From a virus: DNA of 52,994 nt. Of this stretch, positions 6,343 to 42,769 are shown piece after piece. Below the pieces are notes generated by a model that saw only the letters and a list, made by a program, of their open reading frames with translations, did not search any database and was not told the DNA's origin. Position 1 is the first letter of the stretch. Each line of letters begins with the position of its first letter. The stretch spans positions 1 through 52,994 of IMG/VR virus record IMGVR_UViG_3300028831_000554; one strand, given 5' to 3'. A program made the position numbers and the translations under genes.

Positions 6343-6564
6343 TCAACGGTGTTCCACGGCGTTCCACATCAAGAGCCGGTCCTGCATCGGACGGGACAAC
6401 TCCTCCAGTCCAACCTCAACATCGTCAGCGACGTGAGCCATCAACCAGTCACGCACCTGCTCGGCCTTCTCCTTCTGCCGAAAGGGTCCGAAGGCTTCTG
6501 AGGCACCGGTCCCTACTACCATCACGATCCACTTGTAGCGTCCACCCTTGGGTCCGTTATCCAT
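6343..6564 (-). CDS. Small hypothetical protein, 73 aa
   Basis: The product has an N-terminal strand (YKWIVMVVGTGASEAFGPF) and a helix (KEKAEQVRDWLMAHVADDV), a strand-helix arrangement reminiscent of small SPOR-like or DUF folds of phages, but without a diagnostic motif. The ribosome-binding site is weak (GATGAG). It is read in the same direction as the long fibre operon upstream. Confidence 0.6.
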   Translation of the reverse strand: MDNGPKGGRYKWIVMVVGTGASEAFGPFRQKEKAEQVRDWLMAHVADDVEVGLEELSRPMQDRLLMWNAVEHR

Positions 6565-6639
6565 GGTCTGATCGTCTCATCGTCACCAAATTTGCCTGAC
6601 ACATGGACGCAGCAGTATCGGCGGAGTATTCGCTCCTGC

Positions 6640-7131
6640 TCATGGCTGGCAGGGGGTGGAGCGGGGGGCCTGCCAGGTGAAGCCGGTGGAGTCACGGCAG
6701 GTCCGCAGGAAGGAGGCCCGGTGGTCGATGGCCTGGGTGGCGCCGAAGAGCAGGCCGACGAGGATGATCATGCCCAGGGCCCAGGTGGCCAGGGCGACGG
6801 TGATGGCGGCGAGCCAGGAGGGGGTGCCACGGAGGAGGGTGATGAAGGCCTCGGGCTCGCTGAAGTACAGGGTGTTGATCTGGATGTTGTCGGGGGAGAA
6901 CCGCTGGCCGAGGATGCCCGGCTCGCCCCGGGGGCGCCAGCCGAGGTGCTGGTAGGTGAAGCGGTTGCGGTAGGGGGTGGAGGTCCAGGCCACGAGGAGG
7001 GAGTTGGGGGTGCGGCTCCGGTTCCAGGTCCCCATGACCGACCGGGCCAGGCGGTGGGCGCACAAGAGGGTCCAGGCGAGGATGAGGAGGAGGCCGACCA
7101 GGGCCACGGCGAGGTGGGCGGCGGTGCGCAT
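6640..7131 (-). CDS. Membrane protein with two TM segments, 163 aa
   Basis: The N-terminus has a hydrophobic helix (residues 5-25, AVALVGLLLILAWTLLCAHR) and a second one lies near 108-132 (WLAAITVALATWALGMIILV). About 80 residues between them would form one loop. The ATG overlaps the stop of the HTH gene by one base. It is the distal end of the fibre/glycosylation operon; holin, anchor or superinfection roles are possible but unsupported. Confidence 0.7.
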   Translation of the reverse strand: MRTAAHLAVALVGLLLILAWTLLCAHRLARSVMGTWNRSRTPNSLLVAWTSTPYRNRFTYQHLGWRPRGEPGILGQRFSPDNIQINTLYFSEPEAFITLLRGTPSWLAAITVALATWALGMIILVGLLFGATQAIDHRASFLRTCRDSTGFTWQAPRSTPCQP

Positions 7132-7388
7132 CAGTGCTGGCGGAGGATGTTGTTGACCGCCTGGCCGGAGATGCCCAGGAGGCGGCCGACATCGGCCTGG
7201 GACAGACCGGCGTCGAGGGCGACGCGGATGGCGTCGGCCCGCATCTCGGCCAGGTCCGAGAGCCGGTCCCGGGTCACGTCGATCTGCTCGGCCAGCTTCT
7301 TGGCCTGGTTGATGGCGGCCGCTGCCTTGGGGGTGACCGCCACGGTCTTGGCGGCGATGGTCTTGGCGGGGATGGTGATGTTGTCCAT
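7131..7388 (-). CDS. Small HTH DNA-binding protein, 85 aa
   Basis: I start at ATG 7388 (MDNITIPAKT). The long frame upstream is a shadow. Residues about 58-82 form a clear helix-turn-helix (LSQADVGRLLGISGQAVNNI), with a helical region before it. The fold resembles sigma-region-4-like or resolvase-type HTH domains. It lies inside the late minus operon, so it may regulate that operon or its neighbours. Confidence 0.75.
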   Translation of the reverse strand: MDNITIPAKTIAAKTVAVTPKAAAAINQAKKLAEQIDVTRDRLSDLAEMRADAIRVALDAGLSQADVGRLLGISGQAVNNILRQH

Positions 7389-7419
7389 GCCCGCAGGATG
7401 GACTCCCCGGACCGCTTTG

Positions 7420-8073
7420 TCAACCCCTCCCTTGGCGCCGGGTGGCCCGCTGGCGGGAGATCTGCGCCCTTTGCGCCGGGGTGAGCCAGGACCCGGCCCA
7501 CCAGTGCTGGCAGAAGGCCCAGGGCTGGCCCACCGGCCCGCCGTCACGCAGAAGGTGCTTCTCCCGGTAGTGGACGGGGTAGAGCGAGCCCGGCGGGAGG
7601 AGGAGCACGTCATCCCGGCCGGGTAGCACAGCCGTGGTCACCCCGGGCCCGGACTCCCAGGCCCCGCCTCCTCCCGCCACCACCCCCATGGCCCGGGAGA
7701 GGCACGACAGGATGGCCGGATGGCCCGCCTCGGCCCCCAGCACGGCGTCGGGGACCACCTTGGCGTCCTCCCAGGCGGCGAAGCAGCCCACTCCCCGGAG
7801 GGGCTCGAAGGACCGCAGGGGCTCCACGTCGGAGTCCACGTACACCCCGCCCCGCAGCGAGAGGTCCTCGAGGCGGATGAGCCCCGCCCGCTGGGCCCCC
7901 GAGGTGCAGTGGCCCCAGAGCCGGGCGGTGGCCGGGAACCACTCCTCGGGCACGGGGTCGCGCCAGGTGACGAACTCCCAGCCGGGGTGGAGTTCCTGGA
8001 ACCGGAACCAGAACTGCTCGGTCTCGGAGACCACCTCGGCCGGGACCGTCCGCACCAGGCGCCGGGGGATCAT
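7420..8073 (-). CDS. Glycosyltransferase, GT32/DXD type, 217 aa
   Basis: The N-terminus follows the pattern of sugar-binding DXD transferases (IPRRLVRT then PGWEFVTWRD), and GGVYVDSDVEPL around residues 74-85 carries the DXD that binds nucleotide sugar and metal. No signal or TM segment is seen, so it acts in the cytoplasm on a phage or host acceptor. The start overlaps the previous stop (ATGA). It belongs to a cassette with two more transferases and a methyltransferase; the likely targets are virion proteins encoded upstream, but the acceptor is inferred. Confidence 0.8.
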   Translation of the reverse strand: MIPRRLVRTVPAEVVSETEQFWFRFQELHPGWEFVTWRDPVPEEWFPATARLWGHCTSGAQRAGLIRLEDLSLRGGVYVDSDVEPLRSFEPLRGVGCFAAWEDAKVVPDAVLGAEAGHPAILSCLSRAMGVVAGGGGAWESGPGVTTAVLPGRDDVLLLPPGSLYPVHYREKHLLRDGGPVGQPWAFCQHWWAGSWLTPAQRAQISRQRATRRQGRG

Positions 8074-8420
8074 CGGGCGAACCCGTAATTGACGATGAAC
8101 ACCACCAGTGACAGGACGAGGGTGGCGGCGGCGATCATGTAGCCGAACGTGGCGGCGTTGCCCGCCGTCCGCCCGGCCAGCTTGTCCATGTAGGTGGTCA
8201 GGTTGTCGATCTTCTCGGCCACGGTGTCGAAGCGTTTCTCCTGGGCCAGCTCCGCTTTGATGACGGCCTCTTTGGCCGCCGCCATGGCCGCGGCGGTGGC
8301 GTGCTCGATGGCCACGAAGCGCTGCTGGATGGCCTCGAAGCGGTAGTCGGTCTCCCGTCGCAGGTTGTCCAGGCCCATGTCAGCGGCCCGGCGCCGTTCC
8401 CCGTTGTCCTCGGTATTCAT
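8070..8420 (-). CDS. Coiled-coil membrane protein, 116 aa
   Basis: Residues about 10-85 are heptad-like and charged (a coiled coil), and residues about 92-112 are a C-terminal transmembrane helix (FGYMIAAATLVLSLVVFIVN). The topology is that of small tail-anchored phage proteins, which can be holin-associated. Both ends are translationally coupled (ATGA). Confidence 0.7.
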   Translation of the reverse strand: MNTEDNGERRRAADMGLDNLRRETDYRFEAIQQRFVAIEHATAAAMAAAKEAVIKAELAQEKRFDTVAEKIDNLTTYMDKLAGRTAGNAATFGYMIAAATLVLSLVVFIVNYGFAR

Positions 8421-8614
8421 TCATCCGCCTCCTCGGCCCGGGCGGCGTTGTAGGCCGACAGGTGGCCCACGAAGTTGGCGTAGAGCGACATGGCCGCCAC
8501 CCACAGGATGGACTGCTTCCACCACAGCAGGGTGGGGGCCAACAGGGCGGCCCACACCCCGGCCAGGATGAGGTGGATACGGCACATGATCCTGGCCGAC
8601 ACCCGCTGGCTCAC
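8417..8614 (-). CDS. Small membrane protein with two TM helices, 65 aa
   Basis: The start is GTG 8614, overlapping the methyltransferase stop (GTGA); the longer frame on record is a shadow of the methyltransferase. Two hydrophobic segments (IHLILAGVWAALLAPTLLW and SILWVAAMSLYANFVGHLSA) make a hairpin in the membrane. The C-terminus is acidic. A holin-like role is possible; the context is fibre modification, so an anchoring role is equally plausible. Confidence 0.65.
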   Translation of the reverse strand: MSQRVSARIMCRIHLILAGVWAALLAPTLLWWKQSILWVAAMSLYANFVGHLSAYNAARAEEADE

Positions 8615-9201
8615 CGGACGAACTCCCCCACCCAGACCGACTCGGCCCAGATGGACGTGGCGGCGTAGCGGCGGTGCTCCAGCCGCCTCGTTTGGCGCCA
8701 GCCGGAACCGTCGCGCACGAACGTGGCCTGACGGGTCGGGGTGACCGGCAGGCGCCCGTCGAGCACGGCCGAGTCCCAGAACGGGTGCCAGCCCATGGGC
8801 GTGGTCACCAGCATGGCCCCGCCCGGGCGCACCAGTTCCCACAGGTGCCGGAGCGCATTGACGGGCCCGTCGGGATGGCGCCCCTGGTCGGGCTCGTCCC
8901 AGCGGACGTGCTCCAGGGTGGAGATCGACACCACCCAGTCGTGGTCCTGGTGGTAGTCGAAGAGGTCCATGGCCAGGTGCCGTCCCGGCTCGTAGCGGTC
9001 GATCACCGTCCAGGGGGCCCGCATGTAGTGGGAGAGCACGTTGCCGATCTCGAGCCCGCCCCCCGCCGACCCCCGCTGGCCGATGAACCACCGGGCGATG
9101 GGGATCTCCACCGCCCGCTCGTTCTCCCCGGAGTGGTTGTAGGCGTCGCGGCAGTACTCGAGTTCGACATCCCAGTAGTAGAACCGCTCAGGCGGCAACA
9201 T
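8611..9201 (-). CDS. SAM-dependent methyltransferase, class I, 196 aa
   Basis: Motif I is GLEIGNVLSHY (about 49-59), an acidic strand end appears as VIDRYEPG (motif II region), and STLEHVRWDEP plus RPGGAMLVTTP are the usual motif IV and post-motif segments. The fold is that of small-molecule or sugar methyltransferases. Being sandwiched between glycosyltransferases, it probably methylates a sugar that they transfer. It overlaps the upstream gene by 14 bases. Confidence 0.8.
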   Translation of the reverse strand: MLPPERFYYWDVELEYCRDAYNHSGENERAVEIPIARWFIGQRGSAGGGLEIGNVLSHYMRAPWTVIDRYEPGRHLAMDLFDYHQDHDWVVSISTLEHVRWDEPDQGRHPDGPVNALRHLWELVRPGGAMLVTTPMGWHPFWDSAVLDGRLPVTPTRQATFVRDGSGWRQTRRLEHRRYAATSIWAESVWVGEFVR

Positions 9202-9907
9202 CGGCCCGCCCGTCGAGAAGGTTCCTCATGGCCTCGGGGTCCCAGCGCGCCGCCAGGTACCGGTCGCAGCGCTCCTTGTTGGCCAGCATGGTCGGCGAGG
9301 TCGGCTGGTTGCCCGAGGACACGGTGTGCCAGATGTGGAAGAGCACGCCGGGGATCTTGAACATCTCCTCTCCCGACATGGTCTCGCAGGCCACCCGGAA
9401 GGCGATGTCCTCGTAGCCCCAGCCGACGAATCCCTCATCGAAGCCCCCCACCGCCTCCCACAGTTCCCGGGTCACCACGTTGGCCGACGAGCACGCCCCC
9501 CGCAGACGGGCCCGGGTCCAGCGCCGCCAGGTCCGGGGCGCCGCCCGTAGGTCGACCCGGCCCGGGTCGGAGGCCAGGACGTGGGGCGAGCCCTGCTGGG
9601 TCAGCTGGTGGCGTTCGGTGTAGGCCAGCACGGGCCCGCCGGTGCGGACCGCCTTGTCGATCGCCCCGGTCACCATCTTGTGGTACAGCACCACATCGGC
9701 GTCGATGACGACGGCCACGTCCCAGTCCCCGGCCTCGGCACTGGCCCGGTTGATGGCCGCTGAGCGATTGAACGGCCCCTCGTCCTCGTCGTGCCAGCCC
9801 TCGAAGATGGGCAGCCCCACCTGGAGGGCCCAGTAGCGGCGCACCCAGTCCCAGATCAGATCCCGCTCGGGGTCGGCCCGGCGAGGGACCAGCACGACAG
9901 CGTTCAC
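9188..9907 (-). CDS. Glycosyltransferase, GT2/GT7-C type, 239 aa
   Basis: The protein starts with a Rossmann-like strand (NAVVLVPRRADPERD), has DADVVLYHK (DXD, about 69-77), and shows the C-terminal galactosyltransferase signature GGFDEGFVGWGYEDIAFRVA (about 154-173). HIWHTVSSGNQP further down matches the metal-binding His region of that family. It is soluble. The ATG overlaps the upstream stop (ATGA). Confidence 0.85.
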   Translation of the reverse strand: MNAVVLVPRRADPERDLIWDWVRRYWALQVGLPIFEGWHDEDEGPFNRSAAINRASAEAGDWDVAVVIDADVVLYHKMVTGAIDKAVRTGGPVLAYTERHQLTQQGSPHVLASDPGRVDLRAAPRTWRRWTRARLRGACSSANVVTRELWEAVGGFDEGFVGWGYEDIAFRVACETMSGEEMFKIPGVLFHIWHTVSSGNQPTSPTMLANKERCDRYLAARWDPEAMRNLLDGRADVAA

Positions 9908-10350
9908 GTCACCGCTTCGGTGGTGAGGGTGCCGTCATTGGCCACCTTGATCCGATACCGGGTGTTGTTCGGCGCCTTCAGGATCACTCCGTCCTCGGGG
10001 ACATTGAATTCGGCGTCGTGGTTGAACAGGACCGAACCCAGACTCAACTGGTTGTTGATCCAGCCGATGGAGGCGCGACTGTCATAGGGACTCGTGGCGC
10101 CGTTGGAGAGGTAGAGCACCGAGTCGTACGGATCTGACAACAACAGCCAGCGTGGGTACTCGTCCCCTTCGAGCTTGGCGGCCATGACCGGCTGGTCCTC
10201 GGGAAACACGAGGACGGTCATGGTGGCGTCTCCGCCACGGATGGGGTCGGGCATTTCCTCGGTGGTGAACGCAGTGGCTGCCATCGACGCACCGGATTGC
10301 CCTTGCAGATCTTCGATCTCACGTTCCAGGTAGTTCTCGAACTCGGTCAT
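9904..10350 (-). CDS. Virion-like beta protein, 148 aa
   Basis: The start is ATG 10350 (ATGA with the GT4 stop); the longer frame is out of context. The N-terminal 45 residues are polar and helical (FENYLEREIEDLQGQ) and the remainder is beta-rich (MTVLVFPEDQPVMAAKLEG, RYRIKVANDGTLTTEAV). This looks like a fibre- or capsid-associated domain, which fits its position inside the fibre block. Function unknown. Confidence 0.65.
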   Translation of the reverse strand: MTEFENYLEREIEDLQGQSGASMAATAFTTEEMPDPIRGGDATMTVLVFPEDQPVMAAKLEGDEYPRWLLLSDPYDSVLYLSNGATSPYDSRASIGWINNQLSLGSVLFNHDAEFNVPEDGVILKAPNNTRYRIKVANDGTLTTEAVT

Positions 10351-11396
10351 GTGTACCACCCTTCTCCGTAGAGGGTCGCCAGGCGGTCGATCCACCAGTC
10401 GTACTGCGGGGCGCAGGCCTCGAGGGTGAAGCGGCCCATGGCCCACTCCTGAATCGTGGCGGGGTCGAGGCCGTCCACCGCCTCGGCGCCGAGGAGGAAA
10501 TCCGAGAGGGTGTGGCAGAGATAGCCGGAGTGCCCGTGCGCCACCGTCTCGGTGTAGGCCCCGAACGGCGATGCCAGCACCGGCGTGCCGCTCAGCATGG
10601 CTTCGGCCGCCACGCCGCCGAAGGGCTCGATGTACACGCTGGGCGACAACAGCGCCCGGGCCCCGGCCAGGAGGGCGGCCTTCTTCGCTCCCCGTACCAC
10701 CCCGACATGCTCGATGCCCTCGAGTGCCGCCCCCTGCCCGGCGGTGACCACCCGGTGGTGCTCGGCCAGGCGCCGCACCACCTCGAGCCCCTTGCGCTCG
10801 GTCATCCTTCCCATGAACAGGAGGTAGTCGGACTTCTCATCGCTGAAGATGTAGTCGGCGGGGTCGAACGAGTTGGGTATGACCACGTCGAACCAGCGCC
10901 CGTCGGTCACCCCGGTCCGACCCCAGACGTAGTGCAGCCAGGCATAGGACTCGAAGCACTTGTGGGTCTCGTTCAGCACCCCTTCGTAGCCCACCCCGCA
11001 CTCGGCCACCACATGGTGGGGAAAGGCTGCCTGGATGGGCGCCTGGGCCCGCCCCATGGTCAGGAAGATGATGTCCTCGGGCCCGATGCGCTCCCCCATG
11101 GAGGTCACCGTGCGGGCGTTCATGGCCAGCCAGGGCGCCGAGAGGGGATCGAACTGGTCAAAGACCGTGTCCTCCCAGGTCTCGCTCCCAAACCAACTGG
11201 CCCGGTCATCCTGGGTCACCACCGCGACGTGCTCGGTCACCGGGGCGTCACATTCCGGTCCCGAGTAGAGGTACACCTCGCGGCCCAGGTCGGCCAGCAT
11301 CCGGCACAGGCGCAGCGCCTTACCGACATAGGCGTCCGGCTCCCACCGGTTGACGAGGTCGCGATGCGGGGTGGGCGCGGCCAGGTGGATCTTCAC
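10347..11396 (-). CDS. Glycosyltransferase family 4, 349 aa
   Basis: The start is GTG 11396 overlapping a small upstream gene (GTGA); an ATG 18 bases upstream has its AGGAG-like site too close. The C-terminal half has the GT4 hallmarks: YLLFMGRMTERKGLEVV, a binding loop, and the E-x7-E region EPFGGVAAEAMLSGTPVLAS followed by GHSGYLC. These enzymes use NDP-sugars with retention. It probably starts or extends the glycan made by the neighbours. Confidence 0.9.
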   Translation of the reverse strand: MKIHLAAPTPHRDLVNRWEPDAYVGKALRLCRMLADLGREVYLYSGPECDAPVTEHVAVVTQDDRASWFGSETWEDTVFDQFDPLSAPWLAMNARTVTSMGERIGPEDIIFLTMGRAQAPIQAAFPHHVVAECGVGYEGVLNETHKCFESYAWLHYVWGRTGVTDGRWFDVVIPNSFDPADYIFSDEKSDYLLFMGRMTERKGLEVVRRLAEHHRVVTAGQGAALEGIEHVGVVRGAKKAALLAGARALLSPSVYIEPFGGVAAEAMLSGTPVLASPFGAYTETVAHGHSGYLCHTLSDFLLGAEAVDGLDPATIQEWAMGRFTLEACAPQYDWWIDRLATLYGEGWYT

Positions 11397-11521
11397 ACCG
11401 CGGCCGCGCCCCACATCTCCCGGTACGGCTCCGGTGGGTTGGTCGGGACCATCCGCCGCCAGGGCGGCCGCACCGCTCTGGCCACGTACAGGTTGGTGGG
11501 ACGGCGGAAAACCCCGGTCAT
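11393..11521 (-). CDS. Very small basic protein, 42 aa
   Basis: ATG 11521 overlaps the preceding stop (ATGA) and its TGA at 11395-11393 overlaps the GTG of the GT4 gene. This exact coupling on both sides is what supports it. The product is Arg/Pro-rich with an RPTNLYVARAVRPPWRRM core. It may act mainly to carry ribosomes to the GT4 gene. Confidence 0.5.
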   Translation of the reverse strand: MTGVFRRPTNLYVARAVRPPWRRMVPTNPPEPYREMWGAAAV

Positions 11522-12009
11522 GGCACCAGCTCGGCGACGTAGGCGGTGGCTACCCAGGTGATGGAGTCGGCGGGCGCCCCGGTCATGCCGATAGCGAGAG
11601 CCTGGGACACGCTGGTGGAGAAGGCGGTTTCCGGCGTCCAGAGGATCTGGAGCCCCGCCCGGACGTTGAAGGTGTCGTTGTGGAGGGTCACCAGCGTCCC
11701 GGTTCCCACCGCGATCCTGGTCGTGTTGGCGGTCTCGGCCGTGAACGATGCCGCCGCGTCCCCGGCCCGGTTCGGGTTACGGACAACGCCCGTGTTCCCG
11801 CCAGAGCCCGACGTGTACGAGCCACTGGCCCGCTTGATGTACCAGTCAATCTGCTCTTCCTGGGAGTCGCCAAGCTCTGTGGTCTGACCGATGAACAGGC
11901 CGAGCAGCATGATGGCGGCCGAAGATCCGGCGATCAGTTCGAACCAGTCGATGGCCCCAGCCTGGGCTGACGCGGCCAACTGGACGGTGTAGGCGCGGGG
12001 GACGATCAT
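11518..12009 (-). CDS. Putative virion protein, 163 aa
   Basis: After a hydrophobic strand-like N-terminus (residues 10-45, including AAIMLLGLFIGQTTE) the protein is beta-rich with Gly/Ser/Thr (SGSYTSGSGGNTGVV, TRIAVGTGTLVTLHNDTFN), as in phage fibre or decoration proteins. The N-terminal pattern MIVPRAYTVQ resembles small tail-associated proteins from actinophages, but I cannot name the family. Its neighbours are fibre genes on one side and glycosyltransferases on the other. Confidence 0.65.
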   Translation of the reverse strand: MIVPRAYTVQLAASAQAGAIDWFELIAGSSAAIMLLGLFIGQTTELGDSQEEQIDWYIKRASGSYTSGSGGNTGVVRNPNRAGDAAASFTAETANTTRIAVGTGTLVTLHNDTFNVRAGLQILWTPETAFSTSVSQALAIGMTGAPADSITWVATAYVAELVP

Positions 12010-12386
12010 TGAGCGGCCCTCCTGTCACGCCGCCGAAGCCGCTCCAGATGACAGGCTCGGCACTTCCGTCCTTGACGGCCCGAGGAGCTGTAGGTGTTCT
12101 CGGGGGTGTACTCGTGGTTCCGCGGGCAGTGGGTCTTCCGCTGGCTCGCCGACCGGCCTTTCCTGACCATGTCGAGGGTGTTGTCCCGGGGCGTGCCTAA
12201 GAAGTGATGGGCCGGGTTGATGCACCGGGGCGTATTGCAGGTGTGGCAGATGAAATGGCCGGGCGGTATCGGGCCGTGGGTCTGCTCCCAGAGATACCGG
12301 ACCTCCGGCATGGTCCGACCGTTACGTCTGATCTGCGGCTCCCGCTGGCTCGGAGTCCTGGTCGAGAGGATGCACTCGTCAGTCAC
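12006..12386 (-). CDS. HNH homing endonuclease, 126 aa
   Basis: The start is GTG 12386; its reading overlaps the upstream stop by eight bases. The HNH_3 pattern is complete: PQIRRNGRTMPEVRYLWEQ then GHFICHTCNTPRCINPAHHF, LGTPRDNTLDM, and a second zinc site CPRNHEYTPENTY...CRACH. The family makes free-standing homing endonucleases. It interrupts an otherwise fibre-only gene run, which marks an insertion. Confidence 0.9.
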   Translation of the reverse strand: MTDECILSTRTPSQREPQIRRNGRTMPEVRYLWEQTHGPIPPGHFICHTCNTPRCINPAHHFLGTPRDNTLDMVRKGRSASQRKTHCPRNHEYTPENTYSSSGRQGRKCRACHLERLRRRDRRAAQ

Positions 12387-12666
12387 CGGCCACCTCGATC
12401 CAGCCGCCGGGGCCGATCCCGATTTCCAGGTCGGCCGCCACCACGGTCCCCTCCCCGGCAGCGACCCGGCCGTCGTCGTCGTGGTATCCCAGCTGGCCGA
12501 ACAGGATCCGGATGTGGTCGTCCTCCCGGAGGATGGCGCTGATCGGCAGCGGGTCCGGTGTCCGCTCCATCGCGGGGCGCTCCCACCAGTTCTCGCCAGA
12601 GTGGGAAATCTGGACGACGGTCTTGCCGACCAGGCTCTCATCGATCTGATCGTATGGGACGGCCAT
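12379..12666 (-). CDS. Hypothetical acidic protein, 95 aa
   Basis: ATG 12666 follows GGAGG at the best distance. The product reads as a small beta domain (VQISHSGENWWERPAMERTP, HIRILFGQLGYHDDDGRV). No family recognised. It lies between a large virion protein and an HNH insertion and may be a fibre chaperone or decoration protein. Confidence 0.65.
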   Translation of the reverse strand: MAVPYDQIDESLVGKTVVQISHSGENWWERPAMERTPDPLPISAILREDDHIRILFGQLGYHDDDGRVAAGEGTVVAADLEIGIGPGGWIEVAGD

Positions 12667-12673
12667 CGGCCTC

Positions 12674-14404
12674 CTATCTGACAGCGAGGGTGCGGAAGGT
12701 GCGACGGTTGAAGGGCAGAGGCGGCATGGAAGGGGTGGGCGCTGCTGACGGTAGCTCGAAGTTGGCCCACGAAACCTGGGTTCTGATGGTGGCGGGGGCG
12801 GCCGCCAGTTCGAGGATGATTCCGGCCGAGTCCCGGGCGTTGTTGATGGTCGGGTTGTACGTCTGGGCGCCCGCCGCTGTGACCGTCTTGTAGCCGCCAT
12901 AGATCGTCATGTTGAGGTCGGCGGTGGCGATGGACGTGCCGAGCTTGACGGTGTTGAAGCTCGACCAGGACCCGTTGGTGGTGTCGGCGTCCTGGGTGTA
13001 GGTATCGGAGGACGGCCCTTCCACCGCGACCACGCCGTAGGCCACGTTCCCGGCGGCAATCGAGGCATCCGTCACCGAGGCCAGGTTGGTCGAGGCCACG
13101 CCGTTGGCCTTGACCGGCGTCCCGACCACAGGAGTCGTCCCGTCGATTCCCGACCATTCCTCGGCCACGCAGGCCTGGACGACGGAGGCCCCGTAGGTGA
13201 GCCTGATCGTTCCGCTGGTAGCGGCGATCTTGATGACCGAGACGTTGCAGGTCACCCCAGCGCTGGCTACGCCAGGGTCGTTGTTCTGCTGGTACTCGGT
13301 GTGGGTCCCCATCGCCGTGCCAGAGAAGTTGGAAGGGACAAAGGTCACGGCGTTCCCGCCGCTCCCAGCGTTGTCGGCCGCGCTCCGGACGATGAGATAG
13401 TTCCCGACCGTGAGGCCGGTCAGCACGAGGTCGACGGTCGTGGTCGCGGTGTTGGAGTTGGCGCTCGCCCGGTCGGCCACGAACGTCGGCACCTGGTCGT
13501 TGGCGGTGTACGCCGGGGTGAATCTAAGTCTCAGGTCGCTGTAGTCGGTGATGGCATCGGCCTGGGTGGTCGTCAGCGTCTGGTCCTGGGTCGTCCAGGC
13601 ATTCGAGATGCCGGTGTGAGACCAGGACGCCACCGGCCCGTTGACGATGTCGAAGTAGGCGTCAGCGTTACCGCTGGAGGCGTCGGACCAGGTGGTCGCC
13701 ACGCTGTCGTAGACCTGGAGCTTCCCCCCGGCATAGGGGTTCGTGGTATTGCCATGGATGCCGTAGTTGTTGGTGGCGTTGACCGCCGTGGAGCGCCGCA
13801 TGACGAGCCAGTAGGTCCCCGCCGCCAGGAGACCGGAGTTCAGGTTGAACGCCACCAGGGCGCCGACGTTGTTGTCGGTGCTGAGGCCGGACCCTGCCAC
13901 CGAGGCCGTCACGATGTCGGTTCCGCTGGGGCTACCACTGGCATCGGCCTGGAGGGCCAGGATGAAGTTGTCGGTCGGCGACCCCACCTTGTTGAGGTAG
14001 AGGTTCACCGTGTCGACGGATCCACCGCCCGGCCAGGGGAACGACTGGGCGCGCCGTTCCTGACCGGTTGTCGCCCCCATGGCGAACGAGCCGACGGCGG
14101 CGTGGTCGAGGTTCTGGACGACGTTGCCCTGGTAGAGCCCAACGGTCAGGTTGGCCGCCCCACCGGACACGTTCTTCTCATAGCGGTAGTGGACGATATG
14201 CCCTGTCGAGGACAGGGGGTCGGCGATGTCGCTGAGGCTGGCCTCGTAGTACTGGGTCGTCACCGGGGCGGCCGGGGACTGTATGTAGTCGCTGTCGCTG
14301 GCCGCCACTTCGTCAATGGCCGTGTAGAGGTTGGTCGTTCCGCCGCTCTGGTCGGTCCACGAGTTGGTGGCTACGTCACCGTCGGGGTACTCGAAGTCGG
14401 CCAT
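12674..14404 (-). CDS. Large beta-rich virion protein, 576 aa
   Basis: The sequence is Gly/Ala/Ser/Thr/Asn-rich with repeated beta strands and few charges, typical of fibre or tail-tip adhesins. Residues about 105-205 (SFPWPGGGSVDTVNLYLNKV...) resemble surface jelly-roll domains used for sugar binding. Later parts (about 330-520) look like another jelly-roll (VTFVPSNFSGTAMG, DLNMTIYGGYKTV). The ATG at 14404 has GGAC-rich upstream sequence. It probably forms part of the host-receptor apparatus. Confidence 0.75.
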   Translation of the reverse strand: MADFEYPDGDVATNSWTDQSGGTTNLYTAIDEVAASDSDYIQSPAAPVTTQYYEASLSDIADPLSSTGHIVHYRYEKNVSGGAANLTVGLYQGNVVQNLDHAAVGSFAMGATTGQERRAQSFPWPGGGSVDTVNLYLNKVGSPTDNFILALQADASGSPSGTDIVTASVAGSGLSTDNNVGALVAFNLNSGLLAAGTYWLVMRRSTAVNATNNYGIHGNTTNPYAGGKLQVYDSVATTWSDASSGNADAYFDIVNGPVASWSHTGISNAWTTQDQTLTTTQADAITDYSDLRLRFTPAYTANDQVPTFVADRASANSNTATTTVDLVLTGLTVGNYLIVRSAADNAGSGGNAVTFVPSNFSGTAMGTHTEYQQNNDPGVASAGVTCNVSVIKIAATSGTIRLTYGASVVQACVAEEWSGIDGTTPVVGTPVKANGVASTNLASVTDASIAAGNVAYGVVAVEGPSSDTYTQDADTTNGSWSSFNTVKLGTSIATADLNMTIYGGYKTVTAAGAQTYNPTINNARDSAGIILELAAAPATIRTQVSWANFELPSAAPTPSMPPLPFNRRTFRTLAVR

Positions 14405-14406
14405 CG

Positions 14407-14799
14407 TCAGGTCCTTCTGTACCGGACAAACACCGTCAGGTCGGAGCCCGGGGTGCCGCTTCCGATCTGGTCCCGATCCACGGTCAGGTATTCGCCAATC
14501 GCTATGGCGGGGACATCGGGTACGGCCTCCGTCGTCGTGGCGTTCGTCCCGGCGGTGATCGTCGGCCGGTTGGCCTGGGTGGTGAAGATCGTTGTCCCGT
14601 TCTTGTTCACGTCGATAATGATGTCCGCGCCAGCGGGAGCCGTGGCGACGGCGGCCGACACGCCCAGGACCAGGGCGGTGAACGGGAAGCGGTAGCGCGA
14701 CACTCCCGTTCCGGTGGTAAGGACACCGGACCCGGCGAACACCGCCAGCTGCTCGGGGGAGGCGGAGACGGCCTCCGGGTAGGCGTCGATTCGGCCCAT
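14407..14799 (-). CDS. Putative fibre-associated protein, 130 aa
   Basis: The start ATG 14799 shares bases with the previous stop (TGATG). The protein is beta-rich (RYRFPFTALVLGVSAAVAT, DIIIDVNKNGTTIFTT) and resembles small head or tail decoration proteins whose core is one beta sandwich. No catalytic motif. It is coupled to large virion genes on both sides. Confidence 0.65.
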   Translation of the reverse strand: MGRIDAYPEAVSASPEQLAVFAGSGVLTTGTGVSRYRFPFTALVLGVSAAVATAPAGADIIIDVNKNGTTIFTTQANRPTITAGTNATTTEAVPDVPAIAIGEYLTVDRDQIGSGTPGSDLTVFVRYRRT

Positions 14800-15653
14800 C
14801 AGGTGGCCGCCTCGTAGCAGCCCGTCACCATGAGATGGTCGAGGTTCCCCCAAGTGAACGGGGCTGTGGCGGTCGTGCTCGCATAGCTGCCCAGCCCATC
14901 GTCGTGGCGGAGAAGTGCCGTCGTCGTGTTGTTGATCTGACAGCGGGCGTCATAGGCCTTGACTCCGGTGTCGACGTAGGTGGCTGGGCCAATCGGCCAC
15001 TCCTGCACATAATCGGAAGCTGCCGGAATCGGCAACGTGAATGTCGGCGTGGTCCCCACCGCGCTGGTGGTGCCCAACACGAACCGGAGCCTGAAGTTCA
15101 CCTCTCGACCCTGTTTGCTGAAGGTGGCCAGCGTCGTCCCGTTACCCACCGTCAGGTTCGTCCACGTCGGTACCCAGATCGCCCACGCCTCGCTGGCGAT
15201 CATCCCAGCCGTGACCGACTGGCCCTGGGGCCAGACGGTGCCGGTGATGTCCTCGACAAGGATGAACGACGGCCTCGCGCTGCTGGCAATCAGGGACACG
15301 GTGCCGGTGTCGGTGATAGCCGCCAGCTTGTAAGTATGGGTCCCGGCGCTGGGGAGGACAACCGCTTCAACGTGGGCGTTGCTACCGTTGACGGCCGGGT
15401 TGACCCCGCCCTCGTTGAGAGTCGTCGTTCCTTCCTTGGCCCGGACAACCGCCGCCGTGGGGGTCCCCGCCGTGCTGGCGAACAAGGCATGGCCGGTGAT
15501 GAGGAGGCGCCGCCCACCGGGGACGGTAACGGTCACCGAAAGGCTGGTGAGGTCAACCTCGGTCGTGGTGATACCGGTCTGGTTGGCCGCGACTTCCACA
15601 TAGGCCAACGCGCTCGATAGCGCCCCACCCGGCGGGTAGACATCGATGCTCAA
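14799..15653 (-). CDS. Putative tail or fibre protein, 284 aa
   Basis: Two beta-rich halves are visible. The first (about 1-125) alternates strands and Thr (VDLTSLSVTVTVPGGRRLL), the second (about 150-284) resembles the C-terminal domain of phage tail proteins (FRLRFVLGTTSAVGTTPTF, ending in LDHLMVTGCYEAAT). No helix or enzyme motif is seen. Its start overlaps the previous gene (ATGA). Confidence 0.65.
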   Translation of the reverse strand: MSIDVYPPGGALSSALAYVEVAANQTGITTTEVDLTSLSVTVTVPGGRRLLITGHALFASTAGTPTAAVVRAKEGTTTLNEGGVNPAVNGSNAHVEAVVLPSAGTHTYKLAAITDTGTVSLIASSARPSFILVEDITGTVWPQGQSVTAGMIASEAWAIWVPTWTNLTVGNGTTLATFSKQGREVNFRLRFVLGTTSAVGTTPTFTLPIPAASDYVQEWPIGPATYVDTGVKAYDARCQINNTTTALLRHDDGLGSYASTTATAPFTWGNLDHLMVTGCYEAAT

Positions 15654-15982
15654 GCGAACTCCACTCCCGACACCGTGACGGTCAGGGCCGAGGCCGTCGA
15701 TGCCTTCAGGGACACGAACCCGCCCGTCGCCAGGACCTGGGCCAGGGAGTAGATGACGGTGGAGTAGGCGCCGATAGGGGCTGTCGAGACCACGTTATTC
15801 GTCACCCCGGCCGTCCCGCCGGAAGCCACCAGGCTGATGTCGAGGTTGACCGCCGAGGCTGTGGTGTTGCAGACAACGATTTCCTTGATGATGGCGGAGG
15901 TGGCGCCGGGCACCGTGTAGGCGGTCGCATGTGATGTTCCCGGTTGGGTCTGCGCCAGGCGCTTCGGTGTGTATGTGGCCAT
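15650..15982 (-). CDS. Small beta virion protein, 110 aa
   Basis: I take ATG 15982, which shares its A with the TGA of the YadA-like gene (TGATG); an ATG nine bases upstream is also possible. The protein is Thr/Ala/Val-rich (IIKEIVVCNTTASAVNLDIS), the pattern of small tail or head decoration proteins. It is likely a companion of the large fibre encoded just before it. Confidence 0.65.
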   Translation of the reverse strand: MATYTPKRLAQTQPGTSHATAYTVPGATSAIIKEIVVCNTTASAVNLDISLVASGGTAGVTNNVVSTAPIGAYSTVIYSLAQVLATGGFVSLKASTASALTVTVSGVEFA

Positions 15983-18402
15983 CAGCAGCAACCCATCCAG
16001 AACAACCCTTCATCGGTCCCGCCGCCACCGGCAGGCGCCTGCCAGGTACCGACACCGGAGGCGTTGGCGGTGAGGACCCAGCCGGAAGTGGTGGCGGTGC
16101 CCAGCTGGAAACCACCCGGGTGCATCACGGTCTCGGCCGCGGTGCCGAGCATGATCTGGTTGGCGGCGGTGGTAGAGGCGCCTGCCCCGAGCGCGACGGC
16201 GGTGGCGTGGGCGGCGGAGGCCGTGCGGCCGATGGCGATGGCCTGAGCAGCGGTGGCAGAGGCCGCAGCCGCTCCTGAAGTACCGCCACCGATAGCGATG
16301 GATTGGGCACCCGATGCCCTGGCGCCGTTCGTCGCTGCCGTGTCGTTGCAACCCATAGCAATCGCAGCCAAGCCAGTGGCCGAAGCTGCCCTCGTCGCAT
16401 CAGAGCCTCCACCAATAGCAATGGTGTTCGTAGCAGTTCCAGCGTTGGAAAACCGGCCGACAGCAAGAGACTCGGTAGTGGAAGCCGTGCAGCTTGCACC
16501 AATCCCAATCGAACTAGTGCCAGAAGCGGTAGCAACAGTGCCGATGCCTATCGAGTTGGTTGCAGAAGAAGCAGATACGAAGCCGATTGCGATTGCCTGA
16601 GTCCCTGTTGCCGAAGCCCCGGCGAACGACGCATCGCCTGACCCGATAGCCAAGCTGTTGGTCCCCGACGCTCTCGCCCCAGCAACCGCCGTGTTGTCCG
16701 ATGCGCCGATGGCGATGGCCCCCTGGGCGGTGGCGTTGGGGGCGGCGGTGGTGCTGACCCCGGCGCCGATGGCGATGGCTTCCTGACCGGTGATGGCCTG
16801 GGCCCGACGGCCGATGGCCACGGCGTTGGCGACGTTGGCGGCGGCGTTGCGCCCGATGGCGATGGCGTCCGTCGCCGAGGCGTTGCTCTGGACCCCGACG
16901 GCGATGGCGTCGGCAGCGCCCGCCGAGGCGATCCACCCGATGGCGATGGCCTCAGCGGCGGATGCTGACGCTCCAGCGAAGCTGGCATCGCCGGAACCGA
17001 TGGCGATGCTGGTAACTCCCGAGGCCCGCGCCCCGGCAACCGCGGCGCCGTTGCTGCCGCCGATAGCAATAGCGCCCTGGGCGGAAGCGTTTGGAGCACC
17101 AGTCGAGCTAGGCCCACCCCCGATGGCAATGGCGGCGTTGCCGGTGTTTGCACTCGCGCTGTAACCGATACCGATGCAGTAGTTGGAGCTTGCCGTTGAG
17201 GACGTGCCTACGGCGACAGTCCCGGTGGCACCCGAAGTGGACGAGTAGCCGACAGCAACGGGGCCGCCAGAGCCGCCGCCGCCGGAAGCGGAAGCGGTCG
17301 GACCGATGGCCACAGCCCCGTTGGAGGAGGCTGACGCACCCGCCCCGCCCGAGATGGCTCCGCCAATGGCAACCGTGCCGATCGCGCTAGAGACAGCCCC
17401 GACCCCGGTAGCGTCGCCTGAGCCCAGAGCAACCGAGCAGGCACCCGACGCCTTCGCCCCGGCGACACCGGAGCCGTTGCTGGCCCCGATGGCGATGGCG
17501 CCCTGGGCGTTCGCCAGGGGGGCGGCGGTGGCGGAGATGCCACCGCCGATGGCGATGGCTTCGGCGCCGGTGGTTGCTTGGGCGAAGGACCCGAGGGCGA
17601 TGCCCTGGGTGATGGAGGCGACGCTCTTTACACCAACGGCTATCGCAGAGGCCGCGCTTGCTGCCGCTCCTGCGTTTGTACTGTCGTTGGTACCGATGGC
17701 GATGCTGTTGGCTCCCGAGGCTTTGGCTCCCGCGACACCTCCGGAACCTCCACCAATCGCGATGGCGTTGTTGGCGCTGGCCGCCGCGGCCTCGGTAGTC
17801 GAGATGTTGAAAGAACCACCGATGGCAATCGTGCAGCGACCCACCGTCGAACCCGCTGCGTCTCCCAACGCGATGCCAGCTGTTTGGTTGGTATTCGCTG
17901 CGATCCCGATGGCTATGGACTGTGCGGCGGAAGCGGACGCTCCAGCAAAGGACGCGTCCCCTGAACCAATAGCAACTGAACTGGTTCCGGAAGCCCGGGC
18001 CCCGGCTATAGCTGCGCCGTTGGATGCCCCGATGGCGACAGCGCCCTGGCCGGTGGCACTGGGGGCCGACGTGGCGTTGGAGCCGGTCCCGATAGCGATG
18101 GGCTGGGTTCCCGTCCCGGCGTTGGCATAGTCACCGATGGCGATGGATCCGGTAGACGAAGCAACCGGGATCGACCCACCGGCTTCGGCTGTCCCGCCGA
18201 TGATGAGGCTGGTGGCGCCGCCGGTTCCGTCGTGGGTGTGGCTTGCGCCGCCACCGCCGGTAACGACGGTTTCGACTCCCGCGTCGTCCATCGAGTACAG
18301 GAGGCCGTCACTCTTGGCGTAGAGCCGAACCAGGCCGGTCCCAGGGGTACCAGGAGCAGTCTGCTCGACTAGCTCCAGGGCGTCAGAGAACTTCCGCGGC
18401 AT
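15982..18402 (-). CDS. YadA-head-like repeat fibre protein, 806 aa
   Basis: The N-terminal 50 residues (MPRKFSDALELVEQ...) are a phage fibre attachment segment. From about 75 to 745 nearly the whole protein is made of AIAIG or SIAIG strands spaced about 14 residues, with G-A-x-A turns, the sequence signature of the trimeric left-handed beta-roll of YadA heads. The C-terminus (NQIMLGTAAETVMHPGG, then SGWVLTANASGVGTWQAPAG) matches known fibre C-ends. It probably forms a trimeric adhesive fibre. Blocks of the DNA are near-repeats, so expansion or contraction is easy. Confidence 0.85.
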   Translation of the reverse strand: MPRKFSDALELVEQTAPGTPGTGLVRLYAKSDGLLYSMDDAGVETVVTGGGGASHTHDGTGGATSLIIGGTAEAGGSIPVASSTGSIAIGDYANAGTGTQPIAIGTGSNATSAPSATGQGAVAIGASNGAAIAGARASGTSSVAIGSGDASFAGASASAAQSIAIGIAANTNQTAGIALGDAAGSTVGRCTIAIGGSFNISTTEAAAASANNAIAIGGGSGGVAGAKASGANSIAIGTNDSTNAGAAASAASAIAVGVKSVASITQGIALGSFAQATTGAEAIAIGGGISATAAPLANAQGAIAIGASNGSGVAGAKASGACSVALGSGDATGVGAVSSAIGTVAIGGAISGGAGASASSNGAVAIGPTASASGGGGSGGPVAVGYSSTSGATGTVAVGTSSTASSNYCIGIGYSASANTGNAAIAIGGGPSSTGAPNASAQGAIAIGGSNGAAVAGARASGVTSIAIGSGDASFAGASASAAEAIAIGWIASAGAADAIAVGVQSNASATDAIAIGRNAAANVANAVAIGRRAQAITGQEAIAIGAGVSTTAAPNATAQGAIAIGASDNTAVAGARASGTNSLAIGSGDASFAGASATGTQAIAIGFVSASSATNSIGIGTVATASGTSSIGIGASCTASTTESLAVGRFSNAGTATNTIAIGGGSDATRAASATGLAAIAMGCNDTAATNGARASGAQSIAIGGGTSGAAAASATAAQAIAIGRTASAAHATAVALGAGASTTAANQIMLGTAAETVMHPGGFQLGTATTSGWVLTANASGVGTWQAPAGGGGTDEGLFWMGCC

Positions 18403-18523
18403 CCTTCACCTTCGCCGGGTCGCCGCGACCGTTAGCCGGGGCAGGGGGCGCGTCGGGAGCGTTGATGACCCCATAGAGGTCGGCGATCAGCTGGAGAAGT
18501 TGGAGCGCCTGCTTCTTGGTCAT
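18383..18523 (-). CDS. Small protein before the YadA-like fibre gene, 46 aa
   Basis: ATG 18523 has AAAGGG upstream. The product MTKKQALQLLQLIADLYGVI... is a short helix followed by a Pro/Ala-rich, charged tail. It overlaps the first 20 bases of the fibre gene in another frame. The helix plus flexible tail could be an adaptor or simply a coupling ORF. Confidence 0.5.
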   Translation of the reverse strand: MTKKQALQLLQLIADLYGVINAPDAPPAPANGRGDPAKVKDAAEVL

Positions 18524-18536
18524 ACCAGCCCTTTCG

Positions 18537-20228
18537 TCATCCGTGGACGACGACCCGGTACGTCGTGGCGGGGATTGTCGTGGCTGACCGGATCGTGACG
18601 GTGTTGGTCGACGTGTGTTCGACAGAGAATTCCTCCTCAGCGAAGGTCCCGGCCGCGAGGTACACCGTAACCATCACATCACGAGTCCCGAGGTTGTGGG
18701 TGATGACTTCGGATGTGGCCCCGCCAGTGACGTTGGCGGCGTAGAGCATCGGGACGACGGTGTGGTTGACGGCCACGTCGTCGGCGTTGACGGTGATGCC
18801 GGTCCCGGCCCCGACCGCCAGGGCCGTGGTCGGGCCACCGCCGCTCAGGCCCGCGCCCGCCGCGCCGGTCGAGATGTGGACGATGTCCGACGTGATGGCG
18901 AGGTTGGTGGCGTCGACATTGACGGACAGGGCCGTGCCGCCACCACCCGCCAGCCCGTTACCGGCCACCGCCGTGGCGAGCTGGGTGGCGCCGACACCGC
19001 CGTTGGTGATGGAGAACTGGCCCCCAGAAAGCGTCAGGGTCGTGCCGTCGGCCGTGTAGACGTTGTTGTCGCCAGTGACCGTCCAGTTCTGGGCGGCGGC
19101 GGTCAGGTCGGCCAGGGTGTTCTGCTGGGTGTAGATCTTGCCCCGCAGCGACGAGTCGTTGGCCTCGACAAGGACCGTGGCGTTGGACAGCTCCGTGGCG
19201 CTGTTGGCGTCGGCAACGCGGGTCAGGACCCAGGGGGCGGCGCCAGACCCGACGGCGGTGACGGTGTAGATGCCGTTCTGGAAGGTGCTGGCCTGGTCCT
19301 TGACCAGCAGCCGCTCACCGGCCACGAGCGTGTGGCTCGCCTGGGCGGCCAGCGCGGCGTTGGTCGATGAGGTCAGCGTCCCGGCCCCGGCGTTGTACGT
19401 GGGGGTGTTGGGGAGGGCACCGGTCGTGGCCGTCGCCACCGGGTCCTTCCACTGGCGCCCCTCGATGGCGGCGTTCAGCTGGCCGAGGTTGACGGCATCG
19501 GTGGTGAGGGAACCGGCGGCGAGGCCGGTGATCTGCTGGCTGTTGAGGTCCAGCGCCGCCGTCCTCGGCCAGTCGGTCAGGTCGGCGGTGGCGAGCATCT
19601 CCTGGTGGAGCGCCGTCGTGTGGGCGGGCATGGCGTGCTTGTGGTCCCGCCTGGCGGCCACTGTCGCCACGCCGACCACGGCCGAGTCGTTGAAGGCCTG
19701 GGTGCTGGGGGAGGTGGCGTCGAAGGCAAGGATCGTGGCATCGGTACGGATCGCGGTGTTGGCCGAGCCAGCCGCCGCTGCCGTTCCCAGGGTGACGGAC
19801 GGAGCCGCGTACTGGACGGCGAAATTCATGCGGTTGTTGGCGTCGTCATAGGTCGCGGTGATGCCGACGTTGCCGGTGTCGGGCTCAAGGAAGGCCCCCA
19901 CCGCGTCCTGGAAGGTCTCGTCGTTGGTGACGGCGATGGAGAGGCTGTTCGACGCGTCGTTGTAGGTGACAGTGACCCCGGACTGGGTACCGTTGGTGAA
20001 CGCCGTGGCGATGGCGTCCTGGGCGTTCTCGTCCGTGTAGGCGCCAGCCGATGTGGCCAGGCTGACCGTCGCCCCGTTGGCCCGGACGCGAACCGCGTCG
20101 AGGACGGTGTCGTACCAGATCCGGCCGTCGCCGAGCAGGGACCCGGGGTCGGCCGACAGGTTCTCCAGGATCATCTGGATGGCCTGGTTACCGGCCAGGT
20201 CAATGCTGTCGTTGAACTTACGAGCCAC
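18537..20228 (-). CDS. Tail fibre protein, 563 aa
   Basis: It has the usual fibre plan. The N-terminus (MARKFNDSIDLAGNQAIQMI) is like other fibre attachment ends, LDLNSQQITGLAAGS and DAVNLGQLNAAIEGRQWKD (about 225-262) are classic tail-fibre segments, and the C-terminus has ITHNLGTRDVMVTVYLAAGT, a domain shared by many receptor-binding fibres. Coupling places it second to a collagen-like protein. Likely role: host binding. Confidence 0.85.
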   Translation of the reverse strand: MARKFNDSIDLAGNQAIQMILENLSADPGSLLGDGRIWYDTVLDAVRVRANGATVSLATSAGAYTDENAQDAIATAFTNGTQSGVTVTYNDASNSLSIAVTNDETFQDAVGAFLEPDTGNVGITATYDDANNRMNFAVQYAAPSVTLGTAAAAGSANTAIRTDATILAFDATSPSTQAFNDSAVVGVATVAARRDHKHAMPAHTTALHQEMLATADLTDWPRTAALDLNSQQITGLAAGSLTTDAVNLGQLNAAIEGRQWKDPVATATTGALPNTPTYNAGAGTLTSSTNAALAAQASHTLVAGERLLVKDQASTFQNGIYTVTAVGSGAAPWVLTRVADANSATELSNATVLVEANDSSLRGKIYTQQNTLADLTAAAQNWTVTGDNNVYTADGTTLTLSGGQFSITNGGVGATQLATAVAGNGLAGGGGTALSVNVDATNLAITSDIVHISTGAAGAGLSGGGPTTALAVGAGTGITVNADDVAVNHTVVPMLYAANVTGGATSEVITHNLGTRDVMVTVYLAAGTFAEEEFSVEHTSTNTVTIRSATTIPATTYRVVVHG

Positions 20229-20249
20229 GGCTGGTCCTCCTGGGGATGC

Positions 20250-20789
20250 TCAACTGAGGTACGCCTCGCCAGCGAACGAGGCCGGGGATCCGCCGACCAG
20301 GAACGAGATGCGGAGTGTGTTCATGTCGAGGTACTCGATGAAGCCTTCGTGCTGGTCGCCCGAGGTGTCGACCGCCACGACGCCGCCGGGGTTGAACCCG
20401 AGGTTGTGGGTGATCGTCCACACGGCCGAGGGCACCGCCTGGACGTGGCGGTAGTAGCCCCCCGTCCCAGCCGGGCCAGTCGCCCCCGTCGGCCCAGCTG
20501 GTCCGGTGGCTCCGGTGGGTCCTGGCACGGTCGAGGTGGGCCCGGTGGCCCCGGTCGGCCCGGGTGTCCCTGGCGGGCCGGAAGGTCCGGTCGGGCCGGT
20601 GGAGCCCACGCCGGTCGGCCCCGGGGGGCCCGTGGGTCCGGGCGGGCCCGGGGCCCCCACGGGTCCGACGAGGTCGGTGCCGCAGATCTGGACGGGGCAG
20701 GAGGCATCGAGGACGCCGACCTCATCGGTGCCGATCTCGATGTCGACGGTGTTCGTCCCAAGCTCGAGGTCGACCTCGAGGGTTTTCAC
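20250..20789 (-). CDS. Collagen-like fibre protein, 179 aa
   Basis: The start is GTG 20789, overlapping the BppU-like stop (GTGA); the longer frame upstream is a shadow. Residues about 43-112 are GxY collagen repeats ([16 protein letters not shown] and more), expected to form a triple helix. The C-terminal 65 residues carry a compact trimerising head with [18 protein letters not shown], related to the end of the next fibre gene. It is likely a slender trimeric fibre at the tail tip or baseplate. Confidence 0.85.
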
Positions 20790-21124
20790 GGCCTGGTCAC
20801 ATCCGCGGTGACGGTCACGTCCCCGGTCAGGATGGTGTCCTTGCCGGTCGTGGCGTGGGTTCCCTCCAGGTCCCACACCCCGACGGGGTCGAGGTTGTCG
20901 GGGAAGTAGACGACCAGTTCGCCGGTCGCCGCCGCCGTGTCGTCCACGAAGAGGTCGACGGAGTCGGCCGAAGTGCGCTTGCGGCGCCACTGTGCGGCCC
21001 AGGTGCGGTCTGAGAGGTCGAGGGGTTGCTTCGTCGTCTTGCTCCGGGCCCGGACCCGGAGTGCGGTCGGCTCACCGGCATAGAGCTTCAGATCGAGTTT
21101 GGCGGGAGTCAGGTCGACCAGCAT
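20786..21124 (-). CDS. BppU-like baseplate protein, 112 aa
   Basis: The sequence fits the N-terminal beta-sandwich of BppU-type baseplate upper proteins: [53 protein letters not shown]. These anchor fibres to the tail. GGAGG lies six bases before ATG 21124. It is the first gene of the 14-kb minus operon, reading away from the terminase. Confidence 0.75.
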
Positions 21125-26530: not shown

Positions 26531-26571
26531 GCAACCCCTCGCGCAGCGAGGTTGGAGGTAATGATGAGTGA
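26527..26571 (+). promoter_or_regulatory. 14-residue leader ORF and hairpin before the major capsid gene
   Basis: A 14-codon ORF (MSNPSRSEVGGNDE) starts inside the stop of the small gene upstream (ATGA) and runs through the GGAGG of the capsid gene to overlap its start. CCTCGC at 26537-26542 pairs with GCGAGG at 26546-26551, just before the ribosome-binding site. This arrangement can couple capsid translation to upstream ribosomes. Confidence 0.45.
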
Positions 26572-42424: not shown

Positions 42425-42769
42425 ATGGCGAGGTGTAACTGCACAGCCCGGTGCTCCTGCGTGTTGGAGGAGGGCGACAATGTCGACATCACCGGAGCGG
42501 GCACGACGGCGCAGCCCTACATCATCTCGGTCCCCGGCGGCGGGGCAGCCGGGGCCACCGGCCCCTCGGGACCAGCTGGCCCGACCGGGGCTACCGGACC
42601 GGCGGGAGCCACAGGACCGGCGGGTATCGTCGGCGACGCTATCCCGGTCTACGTCTGGGACGGCGTCACCGATTACGCCCTGAGCACCGGCCGCATCTTC
42701 GTCGGTCCCAACGACCCGGCCGGTGAAGGCTTCACCCTGGCCGACGGCGACATCTGGGAAGCGACGTAA
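42425..42769 (+). CDS. CxC-module collagen-like protein, 114 aa
   Basis: Residues 1-30 (MARCNCTARCSCVLEEGDNV) repeat the module of the 31982 gene and are followed by DITGAGTTAQPYIIS. Residues about 37-70 are GxY collagen repeats ([19 protein letters not shown]), and the rest is a small beta end (YVWDGVTDYALSTGRIFVG). It is probably a trimeric fibre anchored by the CxC module. Confidence 0.75.
   Translation: MARCNCTARCSCVLEEGDNVDITGAGTTAQPYIISVPGGGAAGATGPSGPAGPTGATGPAGATGPAGIVGDAIPVYVWDGVTDYALSTGRIFVGPNDPAGEGFTLADGDIWEAT

Follow-up and report, generated by a model that had tools for sequence, protein, structure and literature searches.

Fibre genes, a GT4 glycosyltransferase and a GT7-methyltransferase-GT32 cassette: a candidate two-module virion-glycosylation system in a probable actinophage

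What do the sugar-transferring enzymes encoded behind a set of phage fibre genes act on? The question is raised by the virus record IMGVR_UViG_3300028831_000554, of which the whole stretch of 52,994 bases, without terminal repeats, was analysed here and is called the window. On its minus strand, divergent from the terminase gene, a run of 13.7 kb (21124-7420) carries fibre genes and then genes for a GT4 glycosyltransferase, a GT7-like transferase, a methyltransferase and a GT32-like transferase; terminase, portal, protease, capsid, tail and lysis genes occupy the plus strand from 21189 onward. We read the run as a two-module virion-glycosylation system that would have been brought together behind the fibre genes, and we assign this reading a probability of about 0.5. 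Glycosylation of the virion with a methylated, multi-step glycan, whose acceptors, sugars and methyl site we infer, is most likely, since the transferases of the run are soluble and have no membrane segment or anchor, no flippase-like partner gene was seen, the window showed no base-modification gene of the thymidylate-synthase type, and relatives of the transferases lie beside structural genes. The enzyme genes, with those plus-strand genes that bear on their possible targets, are the following.

10347-11396, minus strand: GT4 glycosyltransferase (PF00534, E 8e-14; phrog_3408, E 1e-53), EX7E motif intact (EPFGGVAAE)
9904-10350, minus strand: protein without a family match, overlapping GT4 and GT7a by 4 bases on each side
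9188-9907, minus strand: GT7a, a GT7-like transferase (PF02709, E 6e-6; phrog_1721, E 2e-27), DAD and GWGYED motifs intact
8611-9201, minus strand: probable class I S-adenosylmethionine methyltransferase, with homologues beside GT7-GT32 in the relatives L098 and L101
8417-8614, minus strand: small membrane protein, phrog_24082
8070-8420, minus strand: probable coiled-coil protein with a C-terminal membrane segment
7420-8073, minus strand: GT32-like transferase (PF04488, E 9e-6), DSD motif, 52% identical to Phrappuccino gp142
29961-30623, plus strand: GT7b, a second GT7-like gene, between the major tail protein and head-tail adaptor genes, missed by the initial annotation
29170-29862, plus strand: major tail protein, phrog_792, a possible acceptor
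26552-28204, plus strand: major capsid protein, phrog_777, a possible acceptor

The initial annotation had described one coupled run of fibre and glycosylation genes, and this description is borne out by codon-position GC, which backs the genes of the run, and by the junctions, at most of which neighbours overlap by 1-14 bases. From GT4 through the 9904 gene, GT7a, the methyltransferase and the two membrane proteins to GT32, all genes are joined by overlaps. Larger gaps occur upstream of 18402 (134 bases), around an HNH endonuclease gene (~290) and upstream of GT4 (121); despite these three gaps, the overlapping junctions make it plausible that the run is made as a single transcript. The left end, previously placed at 6343, has to be drawn in to 7420, the confident end, as the open reading frame (ORF) 6343-6564 has weak coding support. 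One feature lies 3' of the run.

6092-6065, minus strand: terminator-like hairpin with a 12-bp stem, called by a match to the intrinsic-terminator consensus alone

Six terminator-like sites were found versus 5.8 expected by chance, and promoter and terminator counts across the region are together at chance level.

The first module pairs GT4 with collagen-like fibres. The first four genes of the run are listed here.

20786-21124, minus strand: small immunoglobulin (Ig)-like beta-sandwich protein, phrog_1084, first gene of the run, probably a fibre adaptor
20250-20789, minus strand: collagen-like fibre (PF01391, E 3e-7), starting inside the preceding gene (overlap of 4)
18537-20228, minus strand: long fibre (YadA_stalk, E 1.5e-7) with a C-terminal domain like phrog_2647 (head decoration)
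15982-18402, minus strand: YadA-head-repeat fibre (PF05658 YadA_head, E 1.9e-6) with 28 AIAIG-like motifs

The collagen-like fibre has 20 strict Gly-X-Y triplets, 11 of which carry Thr in Y. When searched with an alignment of five GT4s, relatives of the enzyme were found in at least 570 viral contigs. The closest of those found is in L016 (66% identity). Its gene overlaps the end of the reading frame for a 901-aa collagen-YadA fibre, directly before which lies an adaptor gene 40% identical to 20786-21124, and L016 thus repeats three parts of the window's run (adaptor, collagen-YadA fibre and GT4) in another phage. Other relatives occur close to collagen or tail-fibre genes in cyanophages and close to fibre genes in L002. 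Among 38 GT4 representatives, a collagen tract was present in 17 of the 31 complete 3-kb bins upstream of the gene versus 4 of 31 downstream, and in 0 of 20 bins at 3-6 kb downstream. After clustering of the GT4s by identity, and with the same run-length rule as was used for the control set, a nearby tract accompanied 27 of 31 clusters when the cut-off was 85% identity, 19 of 20 when it was 70% and 9 of 10 when it was 60%, with Thr at 0.43-0.85 of Y positions.

The control consisted of contigs gathered by the Gly-X-Y pattern alone, 73 of which had a usable tract. A clear GT4 was present anywhere in the record in only 3 of these 73, and the Thr share of Y had a median of 0.11 versus ~0.62 at GT4 loci (Mann-Whitney p ~1e-8, a test that ignores shared ancestry and habitat, a problem that the clustering of GT4s lessens and does not remove). 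Thr-rich collagen is not exclusive to GT4, as 18 of the 73 controls were also Thr-rich, nearly all of them without this GT4. Lys in Y was essentially absent from the GT4-linked tracts (median 0).

In animal collagen, hydroxyproline has a stabilising role. We offer it as a tentative proposal, with the odds somewhat against it, that this widespread phage GT4 family O-glycosylates Thr of Gly-X-Thr in collagen-like fibres, as a viral counterpart of the SgtA-BclA3 pair of Clostridioides difficile in which the sugar possibly takes over the stabilising role of hydroxyproline, and that here a capsid-type GT7-methyltransferase-GT32 cassette has been added to extend and methylate that sugar. Two side observations concern the same subject. 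In the cyanophages L009 (7441-9666) and L010 (8070-10550), collagen or tail-fibre genes flank a stretch in which GT4 and a 2OG-Fe(II) oxygenase gene (PiuC) lie close together, and hydroxylation of fibre residues is possible there. In the plus-strand tail region of the window, 42425-42769 encodes a second, short collagen-like protein with 11 strict triplets, 4 of them with Thr in Y.

The second module, GT7-METHYLTRANSFERASE-GT32, runs in the window in the order GT7a, methyltransferase, two membrane proteins and GT32. GT7a is a homologue of Che8 gp109 (~30% identity) and of Phrappuccino gp144. Single-protein viral scans with GT7a and with the methyltransferase returned no relatives and alignment queries were needed; a two-sequence GT7 query matched 63 viral loci. 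GT7 and GT32 share one open frame in ~17 contigs and are neighbours in 3 more, and such fusions and adjacency are strong evidence that the two work in one pathway. A PF05065 capsid gene occurs in 15 of 23 representative records (14 above the cut-off), in 11 of them no more than 2 kb upstream of GT7, and in two more records, L098 and L134, the capsid gene ~2.8 kb upstream is of the same type as the window's.

A methyltransferase is present in 16 of the 23 representative records. The window's own gene gave a sub-threshold match to Methyltransf_23 (E 0.007), a poor predicted model (pLDDT 52) and a single PDB profile match, to a tRNA methyltransferase (E 0.007). Two families without detectable mutual similarity fill the slot, one in the window, L098 and L101 and the other in L015 and most fusions, which suggests that methylation itself is apparently what is kept in the cassette.

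L098 has structural genes similar to those of the window, and its order is major tail protein (MTP), methyltransferase, GT7-GT32 and adaptor, so that its cassette occupies the site at which the window has GT7b. L134 has a GT7 at this site too, and GT7b groups with it (support 99/95). The window's trio lies behind the fibre genes and not beside the major capsid or tail gene, with GT7b alone at the tail-gene site. From the L098 site and the position of GT7b, the window's cassette appears to have moved behind the fibre genes, leaving a second GT7 at the tail site, although the direction of the move is our reading of these arrangements. The initial annotation had seen a dedicated fibre-modification system; this description fits GT4 alone, the enzyme tied to collagen fibres, and GT7, methyltransferase and GT32 form a separate cassette linked to capsid and tail genes.

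The surroundings of GT7 vary among relatives. L114 (4863-9406) has a capsid gene, then GT7, a methyltransferase (49% to its L002 counterpart), a GT7-GT32 fusion, a further GT7 and a homologue of the window's 11518-12009 gene, and GT7 neighbours in L096-L134 include sulfotransferase, pyruvyltransferase, epimerase and glycerophosphotransferase-type genes. The capsid-side GT7 locus looks like a place where sugar-decoration genes vary.

Taken together, the two modules could operate as follows. GT4 would add the first sugar to Thr of the Gly-X-Thr triplets in the collagen-like fibre stalk, and GT7a, the methyltransferase and GT32 would build and O-methylate a short glycan. This second module may extend the fibre sugar, may decorate capsid and tail tube with the help of GT7b, or may do both; because it lies beside capsid or tail genes in most relatives, the case for capsid or tail tube as its target is at least as good as that for the fibres. 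The claim of a methylated, multi-step virion glycan, also made earlier, is retained as the best reading of gene content and neighbourhoods, though the fibres may not be its only site.

Several observations weigh against this two-module reading. GT4 sits ~9 kb from the collagen gene, with the collagen upstream, and its best solved relatives include tetrahydrobiopterin glucosyltransferases, which have a small-molecule acceptor. Five neighbour genes in relatives match a teichoic-acid-type glycerophosphotransferase domain. No shared C-terminal motif of the capsid and tail proteins was obvious by eye. Che8 gp110 and Corndog gp38 are named as the transferase essential for capsid glycosylation, and tblastn with Che8 gp110, Phrappuccino gp154 and prophiGD91-2 gp80 found no relative in the window; Corndog gp38 was not among the queries, and the record may be incomplete. 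The Che8 capsid route is thus not simply transferable to this phage; with no gp110 type at hand, GT4 or GT7b would start the chain, or the capsid would stay unmodified. Genome neighbourhood is, moreover, not proof of an acceptor.

The main rival, which we consider doubtful, is that the substrate is a polymer of the host wall or a lipid-linked sugar, which the enzymes would alter so as to block superinfection or change adsorption, and that their position behind the fibres reflects late expression only. Phage transferases of such action are known, and those in the tail region of pelagimyophages have been so read (PMC7029224). The two small membrane proteins within the cassette, the teichoic-type, pyruvyl- or epimerase-type genes sometimes held by the cassettes of relatives and the small-molecule-modifying relatives of GT4 also agree with it. 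However, the transferases lack a membrane segment, no flippase-like gene was seen in the window, the run adjoins structural genes, GT7/GT32 lie beside capsid genes in many phages, and the link of GT4 with collagen and Gly-X-Thr would have no obvious reason.

It is similarly unlikely that capsid and tail tube alone are glycosylated, as in Che8, with the fibre genes as mere neighbours and GT4 serving the same glycan. The capsid linkage of the second module in most relatives, the place of GT7b behind the major tail protein and the precedent of actinophages, in which capsid and tail tube are the acceptors so far proven (PMC12619734), speak for such an arrangement, which leaves the association of GT4 with collagen unexplained and calls on a gp110-type enzyme that was not found in the window. 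Modification of phage DNA bases is very improbable, for although virus-encoded transferases can hypermodify DNA (Pyle 2024, as cited in PMC12619734), no thymidylate-synthase-type gene was found in the window and the GT7/GT32 cassette tracks capsid genes; a Tet/JBP search was uninformative, as its controls failed likewise.

The C-terminal domain like phrog_2647 in 18537-20228 and the position of the L016 adaptor-fibre-GT4 unit, which comes after genes resembling terminase, portal, capsid and head-tail adaptor (a reading by similarity), suggest that the fibres of the run may belong to the head or neck and not to the tail. The remaining genes of the run are these.

15650-15991, minus strand: small structural-type protein, phrog_1276, with homologues in nine GT4 loci
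14799-15653, minus strand: Ser/Thr-rich protein, probably structural, no family match
14407-14799, minus strand: structural-type protein, phrog_27064
12674-14404, minus strand: large protein rich in Ser/Thr, probably a fibre or adhesin, without a family match
12006-~12380, minus strand: HNH_3 endonuclease (PF13392, E 1e-7; phrog_826, E 3e-33), missed by the initial annotation
11518-12009, minus strand: structural-type protein, no family match, with a homologue adjoining the GT7/GT32 cluster in L114

Curated model matches support the earlier names collagen, YadA, GT4, GT7-like and GT32-like. The label "BppU-like" given to 20786-21124 is not supported, as this protein has no Pfam or NCBIfam match to BppU and its predicted model, a beta-sandwich (pLDDT 88.5), finds its best phage matches not in BppU but in neck/connector chains (9mt4, E 4e-4, TM 0.6); "lectin-like", applied to 14799-15653, 12674-14404 and 11518-12009, likewise lacks any family match to support it. 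The HNH gene is probably a homing-type intruder, and a 95-aa ORF lies upstream of it at 12379-12666. On the plus strand, the head protease/portal-region protein 24849-26339 carries, close to its N-terminus, two YadA-head-like IAIG motifs (TGNTIAIGQGYASSSGGAIAIGG), a small piece of fibre-type repeat within a head gene.

Homology indicates that the host is probably an actinobacterium: the window has a WhiB-like gene (48422-48784) and a GP88 gene, and for its capsid, terminase and tape-measure proteins most relatives come from actinophages (none close, all <60% identity). Megablast of the run against phages gave no match, and a genome scan with GT32 returned remote bacterial matches only, so the host was not identifiable by that route. 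As no replication genes were recognised in the record, it may be a fragment, and absences from it are weak evidence.

Virion glycosylation itself is already known, with demonstrations in a few mycobacteriophages, and what is new here is the split into two modules and the link of GT4 with Gly-X-Thr collagen. The pairing of GT4 with Thr-rich collagen, in most of the relatives examined among the at least 570 contigs, gives a concrete acceptor candidate, and the GT7-GT32 fusions with their capsid linkage suggest capsid glycosylation with a methylated glycan beyond mycobacteriophages. Transferases in tail or capsid regions of environmental phages were earlier read as host-envelope or DNA modifiers (PMC7029224, PMC10202952), and both modules would alter how such genes are annotated.

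Among actinophages, virion glycosylation is described for Che8, Corndog and Myrna (Freeman 2023, via PMC12363180 and PMC12619734), and glycans at the C-termini of capsid and tail-tube proteins would mark the Che8 type. Like the window, Che8 encodes its transferases in a multi-gene cassette (gp108-gp110), with three adjacent transferase genes and, as read from sequence, a methyltransferase-like domain at the C-terminus of gp108; the window differs in having GT4 and GT32, in a cassette joined to collagen-like and YadA-like fibres and in the lack of a gp110 relative. Phrappuccino gp142-145 comprise a GT32-like gene (gp142), then two GT7-like genes and a methyltransferase, that is, three transferases and one methyltransferase, and prophiGD91-2 gp73-80, just before terminase, hold a similar set of four transferases and two methyltransferases. 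The window's GT32 is 52% identical to that of Phrappuccino and 46% to that of prophiGD91-2. Unlike the window, both carry gp110-type genes; no GT4 was found among their cassette genes, no fibre genes lie alongside, and their methyltransferases have no BLAST match to the window's. With these three multi-transferase sets already on record, the earlier claim of novelty, that the system is larger than single-transferase examples, no longer distinguishes it.

For the collagen side, Mimivirus L230 is a viral enzyme that glycosylates a viral collagen-like protein (PMC9614988), but its target residue is hydroxylysine and it forms a fusion with a lysyl hydroxylase, while the GT4-linked tracts have almost no Lys in Y. 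Another parallel is SgtA of C. difficile, whose gene lies next to bclA3 and which transfers GlcNAc onto Thr of the BclA3 collagen region (PMC7157674). SgtA is a cellular enzyme proven in vitro, while the acceptor of the window's GT4 is inferred. In both cases, a transferase gene accompanies a collagen-like surface protein, and Thr residues of the GPT-repeat region are the acceptors in BclA3, as proposed here for the phage fibre. The glycan of the related Bacillus BclA bears a 2-O-methyl sugar (PMC6222408).

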